From Bacteroidales bacterium (GTDB taxonomy: Bacteria; Bacteroidota; Bacteroidia; Bacteroidales; NBLH01): DNA of 45,304 nt. Made by a program: the position numbers and the translations under genes. The DNA lies in the NCBI GenBank assembly GCA_016937695.1, contig JAFGWC010000070.1, positions 1-45,304 on the forward strand, given 5' to 3'. Of the stretch, positions 8,681-12,738 are shown one piece after another (within the stretch, counting starts at the first letter, position 1; the number at the start of each line of letters is the position of its first letter). A model generated the notes under the pieces. That model saw only the letters and a list, made by a program, of their open reading frames with translations, was not told where the DNA came from and ran no database searches.

Positions 8681-10012
8681 TCATGATTTGGATGTGAAAT
8701 AATTCGTCATTTGTTTTTCAGGCGTAATTATATCAAGTTCATTATAATATTCTATTCTGTCAATTATTTCTCCTATAAAAATACTTATAAAAATAAATAA
8801 ATTTAAGTGCGAAAAATCAAAGATCCAGAAAAATAAAGGGAATGAAATTAACAAATCTAATCTCCAAGCACTTTGAAATATTTTAAAATCTTTATCTTTT
8901 TTCCAGAAGTAATATTTTCTGTAAATGTAAAGTGCTGATTTTAAAACTATTAATAATGATAATAAAATATAATTTTCGATAAAAATACTTAGAAACAGAA
9001 ATCCTGAAAGAAAAACATGAGCGCTATGAAGCTCTAAATTAGTTGATTGAATGGCTAAACTATATACTTTATCTATAGATAAAAGCAGCAAAATACCAGA
9101 AATTACTGCAAGAATTTGCAAATAAATATTTTGTTTGAAAATTATTTGTGAAATAGAAAGAATGAAAAACATCCCGAAAAATAATATTTCTCTACTCAAC
9201 CAAGATTTTTTAATATTAAATATTGCTCTGTATGCTCTATATTTTTTACCTAAATGAAAAATACTAAAAACAGATGCTAATGTTATTGTAATCAGGAATA
9301 TATGCGGATTAAAATTAATTTTGTAAAAGCTAAATGCTGTAAAATAAGACGCAAGAACAGCCATTAATAATGTGAAAACAATTAAAGGCCATTCTTTTTT
9401 AGCTGAAATTTTTGATTCTATTTTAGATTTACTATTTTTTATTTCAATATGTTTAAATTCCGGAATTATTTCAACTGTTTTTTCATTTCTTAATGGAATA
9501 AAATTAATCGATGGATTTATATTTATATCTGTGAAAGCAAAAATATTTTTATTATTTACAATTTCAGGTTTTTCGATATAATCTAAAGCGCCTGTCGGAC
9601 AAAGGTTTGCGCATGCTGGTTTTAAACCTTCTTCTGTTCTGTGCAAGCAAAAAGTACATTTTTCAATTACTCCTTTTTCAATATTAAATTTAGGCGCATC
9701 GTAAGGACAAGCCCAAGTACAATATTGGCATCCGATACATTTGTTTTGATTGTGAACTATTGCACCGCTAATAATATCTTTTGAATAAGCTAAAGCCGGA
9801 CAATTATTTAAACAAGGCGCATCTTGGCAGTGATTACAAGCTAATGAATGGTAAAAAACAGGCAAATCAGGATGATGGTTTTTGTTAAATGTATTAACAT
9901 CTCGCCAATGAATTGGCTGCTCAGTCTGGTTTTCAATTATACATGCAATTATACATGCCTGACATCCAACGCATTTATTTATATCAAACTGAAATATTTT
10001 TTGTTTATTCAT
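8681..10012 (-). CDS. Fused DmsB-DmsC: four-cluster Fe-S subunit plus membrane anchor
   Basis: A 443-residue fusion. The first ~165 residues are a DmsB/NrfC-type ferredoxin with four Cys sets: CVGCQACIIAC (14-24), the set around 59-74 (CNHCQDAPCLNNCP), KCIGCQYCTWACPYDAP, and CTFC followed by CANLCPTGAL, so four [4Fe-4S] clusters are expected. After a linker (about 165-205) come about eight hydrophobic helices (about 208-430) of the DmsC anchor type, which carries electrons between quinol and the Fe-S subunit. It is the obvious electron-transfer partner of the molybdoenzyme at 10678-12738. The two same-strand genes are separated by an opposite-strand thioredoxin gene, so they cannot be one simple operon. 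No Tat signal is present, so the Fe-S domain should face the cytoplasm. Confidence 0.92.
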   Translation of the reverse strand: MNKQKIFQFDINKCVGCQACIIACIIENQTEQPIHWRDVNTFNKNHHPDLPVFYHSLACNHCQDAPCLNNCPALAYSKDIISGAIVHNQNKCIGCQYCTWACPYDAPKFNIEKGVIEKCTFCLHRTEEGLKPACANLCPTGALDYIEKPEIVNNKNIFAFTDININPSINFIPLRNEKTVEIIPEFKHIEIKNSKSKIESKISAKKEWPLIVFTLLMAVLASYFTAFSFYKINFNPHIFLITITLASVFSIFHLGKKYRAYRAIFNIKKSWLSREILFFGMFFILSISQIIFKQNIYLQILAVISGILLLLSIDKVYSLAIQSTNLELHSAHVFLSGFLFLSIFIENYILLSLLIVLKSALYIYRKYYFWKKDKDFKIFQSAWRLDLLISFPLFFWIFDFSHLNLFIFISIFIGEIIDRIEYYNELDIITPEKQMTNYFTSKS

Positions 10013-10096
10013 AGATAAGAAATTAATAAATTTCAGTTATCATTTTGTAATTTTATGTATGATATTTAGCTTTTTGTCAAATTACTATTCATAATT

Positions 10097-10160
10097 AAGA
10101 TAAAAATATCTTTATTTCGCAATATATTTTGTATTTTTGAGTTTTATTACAAAGTAATAA
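10097..10160 (+). promoter_or_regulatory. Promoter region of the thioredoxin gene with two dyads
   Basis: A -7 box TATTTTTG (10132-10139) lies 35 bases before the thioredoxin ATG. Two dyads flank it: AAGATA-AAAA-TATCTT (10097-10112), about where a -33 region would be, and TTATTAC-AAA-GTAATAA (10144-10160) in the leader. The region also separates this gene from the divergent Fe-S/anchor gene and may regulate both. Confidence 0.5.
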
Positions 10161-10174
10161 TAAAAATAAAAAAA

Positions 10175-10630
10175 ATGATAAATAATAGCTTAATATTTTT
10201 GAGTTTAGGGTTCATATTATTTTTCAATTTAAATTCTTTTTCGCAGGAATTTGAATGGCATAATTGGGAAGATGGATATAAAAAAGCAATTAATGAAAAT
10301 AAAATAATTTTACTTGATGCATATACTGAATGGTGTGGCTGGTGCAAAGTTATGGATAGAGAAACTTATACTGTAAAAAACATTCAAAATAAAATTGCAA
10401 ATGATTTTATTGCAATAAAATTAAATCCTGAATTAGCCGGGACTTATATTTTTGACAAAATTTCATATTCCGGTAAAGATCTTATTCAAAAATTGTCGAA
10501 TAATAAGTTTAGAGGATTTCCTACTACTTTTTTTGTATTTCCGAAAACAAGTAAATCGTATATGGAAGTTGGTTATATTAAAGCAGAACCTTTTGATAGA
10601 ATTTTAGATAAGTACGTGAATATTAGATGA
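10175..10630 (+). CDS. Periplasmic thioredoxin-family protein (WCGWC)
   Basis: 151 residues with a clear signal peptide (residues 1-24, MINNSLIFLSLGFILFFNLN then SFSQ). The redox motif is WCGWCK in the sequence LLDAYTEWCGWCKVMDRETY, and FRGFPTTFFVFP gives the cis-Pro. This is the Thioredoxin_7/DUF255-like layout, a thiol oxidoreductase acting outside the cytoplasm. It lies on the + strand between two minus-strand genes for the molybdoenzyme system, convergent with the catalytic-subunit gene, with only 47 bases between the stops. Whether it serves that enzyme's maturation is unknown, but the placement is suggestive. Stop is TGA. Confidence 0.9.
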   Translation: MINNSLIFLSLGFILFFNLNSFSQEFEWHNWEDGYKKAINENKIILLDAYTEWCGWCKVMDRETYTVKNIQNKIANDFIAIKLNPELAGTYIFDKISYSGKDLIQKLSNNKFRGFPTTFFVFPKTSKSYMEVGYIKAEPFDRILDKYVNIR

Positions 10631-10658
10631 TTCCCATTTTTCTTTTTTTGGTTTATCT

Positions 10659-10706
10659 GAACGCCTTCAATATTTTTTCATTTTTTTTGGAGGCGTTCTA
10701 TTTTTC
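10659..10706 (+). terminator. Probable terminator of the thioredoxin gene, overlapping the dmsA 3' end
   Basis: GAACGCCT (10659-10666) and AGGCGTTC (10691-10698) form an 8-base-pair stem with a 24-base loop, followed by the T-rich TATTTTTC. The right arm encodes Glu-Arg-Leu, the start of the last six codons of the convergent molybdoenzyme gene. The long loop lowers confidence. Confidence 0.5.
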
Positions 10707-12738
10707 TTATTTCCACTTTGTTATCATGAAAAGCTGTTCCAAAACCCATATCTGTTTCTCTGGCTTTCGACAAAAAATTTGTGGTTCCGCCTTGTTTAAT
10801 CCACCAACCGTTTGTCATTGAAATGCAGCCTTTTTTTATTGAATAATCAAGCTTTGCAGTAGTTTTTACATAGCCTCTGTTATTATAAATTTCAACTTTA
10901 TCTTCATCAATAATTCCTCTGATATTTGCATCTTCCGGATTAATGGTAACAAAAGATTCCGGACTTAGTAACTTAATCATTTCCAGATTGTTAAACTGAG
11001 AATGTATTCTATTTTTTGAATTTGGACTCATAAAATATAAAGGAAATTCAGGCGTGTTTTCATCATTTTCTTTAATCGGATTATACTCCGGTAATGGATT
11101 TACATTCCATATTTTTGCAGCTTGTTCTGAATAAAGTTCTATTTTTCCCGAAGGCGTTTTAAATTTTAAATCTTCAAATGCTATTTCTTCAACTTGATTT
11201 GGCATTTGTGGTTCTTGTTTTAATTTTTCCCAATCTAAATCAGGAAATTCAGATAATTTATTTTTCAAATATTCTTCAATAGCTTCTTCGCCCGGTTCAA
11301 TTAAATATTTTTTAATTTTTTCATCAGAAAAACCCATTTGCTTTGCAAGTAAATAATATATTTCAGTTTCCGGTTTTACTTCACCTGCAGGTTCTACAAC
11401 TTTTGGTTTTAGTTGTACATAAGGATTCCAATAACCACCAATAATGTCTGTTTGTTCAAACATGTTTTTGGCAGGCAAAATAATATCTGCTTCCATAGCA
11501 GTATCGGTTAAAAATTGTTCAACAACAACTCTAAAATCCAAACCTCTAAAAGCGTTCATAACTAATTTTGTGTCAGGGTTTTGAGTTATTGGATTTCCTC
11601 TTTCAACCCAAATCATTTTTAATTTAGGATTTGAAATATTAAGCATATCTTCACCTAATTTTGCCATCGAAATTTTTCTTCTAAACAAAGCATTTGGATT
11701 AATTGAAGGATAATAACTTTCAGGCTCTTTAATATCATCAAAAATATATGATTGAAGATTTGCATATTGCCAAGAAGCACCTTTTTTCCCAATGTTTCCT
11801 GTTAAAACAGATAATGTTAAAAGGCTTCTAACTGTTTGACCGCCATTTGTATATCTTTGCATTCCATAACCCGCAATTAAAGTCATAGGCTTGGTTTTAC
11901 CAATTATTTCTGCTAATCTGTATATATGAACTGCATCAATTCCGGTTATTTCAGCAACTTTAGTCGGCGTATATTTTTTTACAGATTTTTTGAATTCGTC
12001 AAATCCGGTTACATGTTTGTTAATAAACTCATAATCAACAAGTTCTGTTTCTATTAGTAAATTTACAATTCCAAGCGCTAATGCTGCATCTGTTCCAGGT
12101 TTTATTTGCACCAATAAATCTGCTCTTTCAGAAGAAGGAGTTCGTCGTGGGTCAATTACAATCAATTTTGCGCCATTTACTTGAGCTTTTTCAATTGGAA
12201 TCATTTCCTGAATATTTGATTCGGCAGAATTTTTTCCCCATAAAATTATCAATTTAGCATTTTCTATATCCCAAGGAACATTGTGTTTATTTTCGCCAAG
12301 TGTTAATCTTGTGGCTTCTAAACCTGCAGGCCAGCATAAATTACCATACATTGTTGTTGCGCCACCAATCATTTCCCAAAAATTATGACTGAAAGAATTT
12401 AATAAGCCAGACATTCCGCTTGCAGCGTAAAATAAAATACTGTGGTTACCAAATTCATTTTTAAAATAGTTTATTTTTTCTGATATTATTTTCAATACTT
12501 CAGACCAACTAATTTTTTCAAAATTGCCTGTTTTTTTATTTTTAATTAGCGGATATAATATTCTATCTTTTGAATTTGCTCGTTCAATATATGCAAGTCC
12601 TTTTAAACAAACGCCTTCAGGAGTAGCTTTGTTTTCGGAATGAGGATCGATATTTACTATTTTGCCGTTTTCTACATGAACCTTAAAACTACAAGTACTG
12701 TAACAGTTTCTGGGACAAGCAGTTGAGAATACATTCAT
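10678..12738 (-). CDS. Molybdopterin oxidoreductase catalytic subunit (DmsA-like family), no Tat signal
   Basis: 686 residues from the ATG at 12736-12738; a longer frame from a TTG at 12763-12765 adds nine unlikely residues. The N-terminus begins directly with the Fe-S domain: Cys8-x3-Cys12-x3-Cys16-x27-Cys44 for one [4Fe-4S]. The molybdopterin fold follows (AKLIILWGKNSAESN, LIVIDPRRTP, LVQIKPGTDAALALGI, TLSVLTGNIGKKGASW), and the C-terminal region ends with the MGD-binding barrel (LYFMSPNSKNRIHSQFNN, VTINPEDANIRGI, GWWIKQGGTTNFLSKA). Cys135 in YGNLCWPAGL is where the protein ligand of molybdenum usually lies, so the ligand is probably Cys, not Ser. There is no Tat signal, unlike exported DmsA. 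Substrate unknown. Partner: the fused DmsB-DmsC gene at 8681-10012. Confidence 0.93.
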   Translation of the reverse strand: MNVFSTACPRNCYSTCSFKVHVENGKIVNIDPHSENKATPEGVCLKGLAYIERANSKDRILYPLIKNKKTGNFEKISWSEVLKIISEKINYFKNEFGNHSILFYAASGMSGLLNSFSHNFWEMIGGATTMYGNLCWPAGLEATRLTLGENKHNVPWDIENAKLIILWGKNSAESNIQEMIPIEKAQVNGAKLIVIDPRRTPSSERADLLVQIKPGTDAALALGIVNLLIETELVDYEFINKHVTGFDEFKKSVKKYTPTKVAEITGIDAVHIYRLAEIIGKTKPMTLIAGYGMQRYTNGGQTVRSLLTLSVLTGNIGKKGASWQYANLQSYIFDDIKEPESYYPSINPNALFRRKISMAKLGEDMLNISNPKLKMIWVERGNPITQNPDTKLVMNAFRGLDFRVVVEQFLTDTAMEADIILPAKNMFEQTDIIGGYWNPYVQLKPKVVEPAGEVKPETEIYYLLAKQMGFSDEKIKKYLIEPGEEAIEEYLKNKLSEFPDLDWEKLKQEPQMPNQVEEIAFEDLKFKTPSGKIELYSEQAAKIWNVNPLPEYNPIKENDENTPEFPLYFMSPNSKNRIHSQFNNLEMIKLLSPESFVTINPEDANIRGIIDEDKVEIYNNRGYVKTTAKLDYSIKKGCISMTNGWWIKQGGTTNFLSKARETDMGFGTAFHDNKVEIRKIERLQKK

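Follow-up and report, generated by a model that had tools for sequence, protein, structure and literature searches.

A predicted cytoplasm-facing, quinone-linked molybdoenzyme with a fused DmsB-DmsC partner in Bacteroidota, Ignavibacteriota and Krumholzibacteriota

Introduction

Described molybdoenzymes with a DmsC-type membrane anchor include the exported DmsABC and YnfEFGH systems of Escherichia coli and SoeABC, the cytoplasmic sulfite:quinone oxidoreductase of Allochromatium and Aquifex. A 2021 review lists both DmsC and SoeC with the residues His65 and Glu87, cites work in which His65 replacements in DmsC blocked quinol oxidation, and describes an inverted placement of SoeC in the membrane as what 'would be expected' (PMC8076601). 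The hosts it lists for SoeC are Proteobacteria, Clostridia and Aquificae. FqoABC, tentatively named formate:quinone oxidoreductase, is listed there from Actinobacteria, Chlorobi, Crenarchaeota, Chloroflexi and Deltaproteobacteria (PMC8076601). Here we describe a system encoded in a 45,304-nucleotide stretch of DNA, hereafter the window, from a Bacteroidales bacterium (GCA_016937695.1, contig JAFGWC010000070.1), which comprises a catalytic molybdoenzyme subunit lacking a signal peptide and a fused DmsB-DmsC protein. These two polypeptides, predicted from sequence, would form a cytoplasm-facing, quinone-coupled, electroneutral oxidoreductase, a reading to which we assign a probability of roughly 0.75. 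An earlier note on the same DNA had located both genes and a thioredoxin gene between them, and all three open reading frames (ORFs) are found where it placed them.

A Catalytic Subunit Without a Signal Peptide

The catalytic gene (10678..12738, minus strand) encodes a protein of 686 amino acids (aa) of the molybdenum-bis(pyranopterin guanine dinucleotide) (Mo-bisPGD) type, without a signal peptide, as judged from the ORF and its translation, Pfam domains and an alignment of 23 sequences. The Pfam models Molybdop_Fe4S4, Molybdopterin and Molydop_binding all match over their cut-offs. The N-terminus, MNVFSTACPRNCYSTC, leaves seven residues ahead of the first iron-sulfur (Fe-S) cysteine, and the single [4Fe-4S] site consists of C8, C12, C16 and C44, all four invariant in 23/23 aligned orthologs. 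The earlier note held that a twin-arginine translocation (Tat) signal is missing, and the upstream DNA bears this out. An in-frame stop lies 13 codons 5' of the ATG, and the longest stop-bounded extension is 12 residues (YIVLNFQLKNKL) with no twin arginine; a hidden Tat start in this gene is ruled out by that limit. A Tat signal likewise lacks room in 26 of 28 orthologs, because the longest stop-bounded stretch before the first Cys motif is at most 20 residues. The two exceptions, L015 with 48 upstream residues and L088 with 71, both fail to match the strict Tat pattern (RR-x-[FLIM]), and an 'RRFI' upstream of L014 has no start codon ahead of it. As controls, 15 listed exported-type proteins were searched over 60 residues, of which 13 have the pattern; the other two are L053, which lacks it, and L034, whose arginine pair falls just past the stretch searched. 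The window genome also carries another molybdopterin enzyme (contig C22, locus L002, 1198-4032) with a clear Tat signal, MKTTRRDFIK, adjoining a DmsB-like gene and so providing the cell with an exported counterpart.

By alignment, Cys135 occupies the position of the molybdenum ligand, as had been proposed. In phmmer alignments it stands opposite the selenocysteine of E. coli FdhH (Sec140) and a Cys in FdhF from hydrogen-dependent CO2 reductase (HDCR); a MAFFT alignment sets it against Ser in the DmsA/YnfE 'YS' pair, and in neither does another residue take that place. The Cys135-Trp136 pair is invariant in 23/23 aligned orthologs. Trp136 takes the position of the catalytic His141 of FdhH, and Asn327 (Asp in 2/23 orthologs) that of its catalytic Arg333. 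The best sequence matches in the PDB are FdhF-type enzymes. An AlphaFold2 (AF2) model (mean predicted local distance difference test score, pLDDT, 79.4) has the family fold, and a fold search with it places FdhH first (query-normalised template-modelling score, TMq, 0.81), above PsrA (0.78), dimethyl sulfoxide (DMSO) reductase (0.76), acetylene hydratase (0.76) and others. Acetylene hydratase also gives a 179-bit sequence match; the Fe-S and anchor partner protein points to a redox role, acetylene hydratase being a stand-alone, non-redox enzyme.

The Fused DmsB-DmsC Protein

Both remaining modules reside in one polypeptide of 443 aa (8681..10012, minus strand), characterised by Pfam matches, an alignment of fusions and an AF2 model. 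A DmsB-like four-cluster domain occupies residues ~1-150 and a DmsC-like membrane domain residues ~206-443. The fusion that the earlier note had read from the sequence is thus borne out by two Pfam matches in the same protein, Fer4_11 at 52-144 and DmsC at 206-352, the latter scoring 26.0 bits against a cut-off of 22.3. Sixteen cysteines are invariant in 15/15 aligned fusions, enough for four [4Fe-4S] clusters. The membrane half is read as eight transmembrane (TM) helices from the AF2 model, with the short helices 257-266 and 431-442 taken as non-spanning. H253 and E275, the counterparts of E. coli DmsC His65 and Glu87 in the alignment, are likewise invariant in 15/15 fusions, so that, judged by its residues, this half would serve as the quinone-binding anchor of a complex iron-sulfur molybdoenzyme (CISM). 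With a predicted Mo-bisPGD subunit bearing one Fe-S site, a four-cluster module and an anchor, the pair has the predicted make-up of a CISM. Among exported DmsABC systems from this order, those covered in full (L033, L035, L036, L037) have a separate gene for each of DmsB and DmsC.

Charge Inversion in the Membrane Anchor

Lysines and arginines (K+R) were counted in the loops on the Fe-S side and on the opposite side of the anchor, using an alignment of DmsC domains and helix borders derived from AF2. The fusions average 13.3 K+R on the Fe-S side and 1.7 on the other, the Fe-S side being richer in 25/25 of these related proteins. The pattern is reversed in exported-type DmsC proteins (1.7 vs 8.8; Fe-S side richer in 0/11), a set that includes E. 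coli DmsC, YnfH and four proteins from the same order, and in which L115 (no catalytic gene annotated adjacent) and L125 rest on similarity or annotation. Three SoeC-like proteins from Burkholderiaceae resemble the fusions (9.0 vs 1.7; 3/3). The split was the same in earlier realignments, in which K/R counts move by a few. By the positive-inside rule the fused anchor would be turned over relative to DmsC, and it has probably been flipped to suit a catalytic subunit on the cytoplasmic side. The cytoplasmic catalytic side suggested in the earlier note is consistent with both this inverted charge and the lack of room for a Tat signal, and quinol chemistry and catalysis would then both take place on the cytoplasmic side of the fused complex.

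The SoeC-like proteins belong to operons on Paraburkholderia and Burkholderia replicons (L113, 1559-6262; L123; L124) that are labelled SoeABC-like from their layout rather than from annotation. All three have a DmsC-type anchor with inverted charge, next to a 977-aa molybdoprotein in L113 and, in L123 and L124, open frames 1011 and 1053 codons long; the Fe-S protein is present in L113 and L123. Their inverted charge lends support to the flipped SoeC that the review had expected.

Distribution and Linkage

Across Bacteroidales, Ignavibacteriota and Krumholzibacteriota the catalytic gene and the fusion are conserved as a unit. A scan of named genomes gave 18 loci, of which 17 are orthologs at 51-76% identity, hosted by Bacteroidales/Bacteroidota, Ignavibacteriota and Krumholzibacteriota. 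Marinifilum caeruleilacunae JC070, the single named strain among the 18 records (the others are metagenome assemblies), carries the pair. Among 99 relatives, with the window genome counted, 12 have a catalytic ortholog and 11 of these the fusion, which was found in none of the 87 relatives lacking the ortholog (E 1e-60). The one relative with the ortholog but no fusion is G023, a 70% complete genome in which the contig breaks off within the catalytic gene. In a phylum sample of 395 genomes the 3 with a strong catalytic ortholog (>1000 bits) are the same 3 that hold the fusion; none of the other 392 does, 13 of them having weaker family matches of 213-395 bits. Because the window genome belongs to both sets, 14 searched genomes have a catalytic ortholog, and 13 of them hold both proteins. 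A survey with the DmsC Pfam model found matches in 7/296 genomes, 3 of them over the cut-off and two of those being the fused system.

Thirty loci could be assessed for linkage. The two genes overlap or lie at most 143 bp apart in 23, a thioredoxin gene stands between them in 2, they are unlinked in 3 (G022, G062, G063), and 2 loci end at a contig border; every linked locus covered contains a DmsB-DmsC fusion. L003 and G003/L022, which give identical match values, were counted as one genome, and other loci of the two genome collections may likewise represent the same species; duplicates and partial entries (L001, L016, L017, L021, L022, L067, L032) were left out before counts or trees were made.

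Ancestry of the Catalytic Subunit and Anchor

The careful catalytic tree comprises 48 of 76 rows; L047, L050 and L055, which stop at TGA, had been dropped before trees were built. The catalytic orthologs form one clade (100/100), with 'CxxDCxxxC' enzymes as sister (100/98) and the DmsA and BisC families next (100/97). PhsA/Psr-type enzymes and the SoeA-like row are placed elsewhere (98/94). Of the phylogeny that the earlier note had called for, this tree covers DmsA and the PhsA/Psr type, both set apart from the catalytic subunit. Placement of the catalytic subunit in a clade with each of three groups was rejected by approximately unbiased (AU) tests, at p = 2.7e-6 for DmsA, 3.0e-5 for the SoeA-like row and 2.0e-6 for formate dehydrogenases. 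These p-values carry less weight because the groups were picked with trees already in view, and the SoeA-like row sits on a long branch. The DMSO-reductase flavour given to the enzyme in the earlier note therefore does not stand as regards DmsA-type ancestry.

Within the sister group, which includes the long row L038, branches have moderate support (80/71). Seven of its eight distinct proteins have no Tat match upstream, so that recent loss of a signal in the catalytic subunit described here is not implied. The remaining sister-group molybdoprotein, L070/L096 (G216), shows the Tat-like start NRRKFIELG together with what may be a lipobox-like cysteine. In a separate, unrooted tree the DmsC domains of the fusions group together (99/95), and both SoeC-like and exported DmsC proteins fall outside that clade; being unrooted, this tree is compatible with one flip event or with two.

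Thioredoxin, Chaperones and Cofactor Genes

The third ORF (10175..10630, plus strand) encodes a periplasmic-type thioredoxin-like protein with a WCGWC motif, a Sec-type leader recognised by eye, and matches to thioredoxin-like families. The earlier note had described it as inserted between the two genes on the other strand, which is correct for its position and fails for membership in the unit. It lies between the genes in 2/25 linked loci, the window and the same-genus L003/G003 (counted once). Orthologs with 65-69% identity occur in the same place in G003 and elsewhere in G001 and G005, all of the same genus. G005 keeps its 65% identical copy and has no close catalytic ortholog, while G002 (82% complete) and G006 have the molybdoenzyme and no close thioredoxin match. 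The gene is judged a lineage-specific bystander, not a component. That it might instead supply reducing power to the molybdoenzyme or protect it, as its place between the genes in the window and one same-genus relative might suggest, is hard to credit: it is on the opposite strand, has a leader for another compartment, is not between the genes in 23/25 linked loci, and is found elsewhere in G001 and G005, the latter without a close catalytic ortholog.

A whole-genome search found TorD-family chaperones in 0/13 genomes with the system, the window genome included; the absence of a TorD/DmsD gene that had been remarked on near the locus thus extends to the whole genome, and is in keeping with an enzyme that needs no Tat proofreading. 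FdhD was found in 0/13 of the same genomes. A MobA-like protein is present at 76 bits or more in 12/13, none over the strict NCBI cut-off; MobA is a soft point, as 14/14 controls give some match and 1/14 passes that cut-off.

Gene Neighbourhoods

No third gene was seen to recur throughout the loci and no recurrent neighbour names a substrate, neighbours having been identified partly by Pfam and in several cases by eye. Neighbours vary by lineage and include ABC transporters, SPFH/Band 7 proteins, a penicillin-binding transpeptidase, peroxiredoxin/Fur-like genes and oxoacid:ferredoxin oxidoreductase. The catalytic gene of G063 (L085, 8502-11269, minus strand) overlaps a menaquinone biosynthesis gene of the mqnA type (Pfam VitK2_biosynth), and the fusion is on another contig; this overlap, in one genome, is a small hint for menaquinone. 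In M. caeruleilacunae (L010, 2248-6533), subunits resembling 2-oxoacid:ferredoxin oxidoreductase and an aminotransferase, identified by eye, lie upstream of the pair. Genes similar to this upstream set are also found near the unlinked fusion of G063 (L101, opposite strand), possibly by chance. Six loci of one sub-lineage (L006, L007, L008, L009, L012, L091) encode a protein of 579-813 aa directly upstream of the catalytic gene and beside ABC-transporter genes; the single copy scanned, that of L006, has no Pfam match, and the L091 copy was placed by eye.

Proposed Mechanism and Alternatives

The catalytic subunit, with its Cys-ligated Mo-bisPGD and one [4Fe-4S] cluster, would stay in the cytoplasm and form a physical complex with the fused protein. 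The four [4Fe-4S] clusters of that protein's N-terminal half would carry electrons to or from menaquinone at the DmsC-type site formed by His253 and Glu275. This site would lie at the cytoplasmic face, since the DmsC half would be turned over in the membrane compared with exported DmsABC, and with both half-reactions on one side of the membrane, turnover would be electroneutral. Oxidation of menaquinol coupled to reduction of a small cytosolic substrate appears somewhat the likelier direction, since the wider clade that has tree support also includes the reductase families DmsA and BisC. A more ambitious proposal would make the pair a separate class of respiratory molybdoenzyme in Bacteroidota, Ignavibacteriota and Krumholzibacteriota, with a 'CxxDCxxxC'-sister catalytic subunit, a fused electron-transfer module flipped independently of SoeC, and a cytosolic acceptor or donor outside the known CISM range; we regard this as tentative.

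Several observations weigh against the cytoplasm-facing reading or parts of it. Orientation is judged by charge alone, under a positive-inside rule that is statistical, and the 25 fusions, being relatives, amount to one clean contrast rather than 25 independent cases. The Fe-S half of the fused protein is poorly modelled (mean pLDDT 63.8), and the fold matches of that model in the PDB, PsrC among them, are weak and insufficient alone. In L088 (G337) an RR pair precedes a hydrophobic run with a possible ATG ahead, so that export is possible there; this upstream stretch overlaps a gene on the opposite strand, a TTG is present at the usual start, and the strict Tat pattern is missed. One of the eight distinct sister-group proteins (L070) has its Tat-like start after a GTG. 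MoeA, present in 11/13 genomes with the system, was not found in the other 2. The reductase direction is suggested by tree neighbours alone, and the closest precedent in architecture, SoeABC, works in the dehydrogenase direction.

The pair may also be viewed as a Bacteroidota version of SoeABC, that is, a cytoplasmic sulfite:quinone oxidoreductase running as a dehydrogenase. According to the review, SoeABC has the same design, with no Tat signal, catalysis on the cytoplasmic (N) side and an apparently flipped anchor with His65/Glu87 (PMC8076601), to which the inverted charge in 3/3 SoeC-like proteins can be added. However, the catalytic subunit is only 20.6% identical to the SoeA-like protein, the AU test rejects their grouping (with SoeA represented by one long-branched row assigned by operon layout), the SoeC-like proteins fall in a separate clade, and no sulfur-oxidation genes were recognised by eye beside the loci, no dedicated search having been made; a SoeABC identity thus seems unlikely. 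It also seems rather improbable that the enzyme is an S- or N-oxide reductase of the DmsABC type that lost its signal peptide and turned to cytosolic substrates. Its closest curated models are indeed dmsA_ynfE and DMSO_dmsB, its partner is a DmsB-DmsC fusion, and the clade uniting it with the sister group, DmsA and BisC is supported at 100/97. These matches nonetheless fall far short of their cut-offs (344.5 vs 777.7 bits for dmsA_ynfE; 138 vs 214.1 bits for DMSO_dmsB), Cys replaces Ser at the molybdenum ligand, a clade with DmsA alone is rejected, and the sister group is for the most part likewise devoid of Tat signals. The FdhF-type matches, the top-ranking FdhH fold and the Cys ligand call to mind a formate dehydrogenase or some other C1 dehydrogenase that would supply menaquinone with electrons from the cytoplasmic side, yet the catalytic pair is missing (Trp136 and Asn327 occupy its positions), FdhD was not found in the 13 genomes searched, and the AU test rejects the grouping. 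Judged by these residues formate dehydrogenase is largely excluded, and we consider it highly improbable.

If the cytoplasm-facing reading is correct, the fused system is a second and better-sampled case of a DmsC-type anchor that has apparently been flipped along with its partners. Charge splits 25 fusions and 3 SoeC-like proteins cleanly from 11 exported-type anchors, where the flip of SoeC was formerly an expectation (PMC8076601). The fusion of electron-transfer and anchor modules has been kept across three phyla, and the system points to a reaction coupled to quinone that would take place in the cytoplasm of bacteria most of which are uncultured. M. caeruleilacunae JC070, which carries the pair, offers a named strain in which to look for the substrate.

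Comparison with Known Systems

SoeABC is the closest working precedent, yet no family match. The two systems share the lack of a Tat signal, a catalytic side hypothesised to be cytoplasmic, and an 8-TM anchor with His65 and Glu87, whose charge is inverted in the three SoeC-like proteins; they differ in that SoeA belongs to another clade and is longer (977 vs 686 aa), and in that the Fe-S and anchor modules are fused in the present system. E. coli DmsABC and YnfEFGH have in common with it a DmsB-type four-cluster protein and a DmsC-type anchor with the same quinol residues, but are Tat-exported, use a Ser ligand, encode DmsB and DmsC separately, have a DmsD chaperone and show the opposite membrane charge. 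The 'CxxDCxxxC' oxidoreductases of Agrobacterium (L051, L052) and Bacteroidota (L038, L070-L074) share the Cys ligand and the C-x3-C-x3-C spacing; unlike the present system they have no adjacent DmsB-DmsC fusion at the loci inspected, they are 27-32% identical to the catalytic subunit, and one of them adjoins ferredoxin and FAD oxidoreductase genes instead. PsrABC and PhsABC have the three-module design, a Cys ligand and an anchor of similar fold (a weak PsrC match), but carry a Tat signal and fall in a different clade, one member of which the window genome itself holds on C22. FqoABC, from its description in the review, is also an uncharacterised three-module system with an NrfD-like 8-TM anchor, set apart by Asp65 at the His65 position and by separate, FdnGH-type subunits (PMC8076601). 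Among the literature matches listed, in which few subscription papers are covered, no title or abstract describes a fused DmsB-DmsC protein with a cytoplasmic catalytic subunit, which is weak evidence of novelty. We rate the parts as being of known kinds and the principle as having a precedent in SoeABC, and the combination of lineage, fusion, apparently flipped anchor and host phyla as a new variant.

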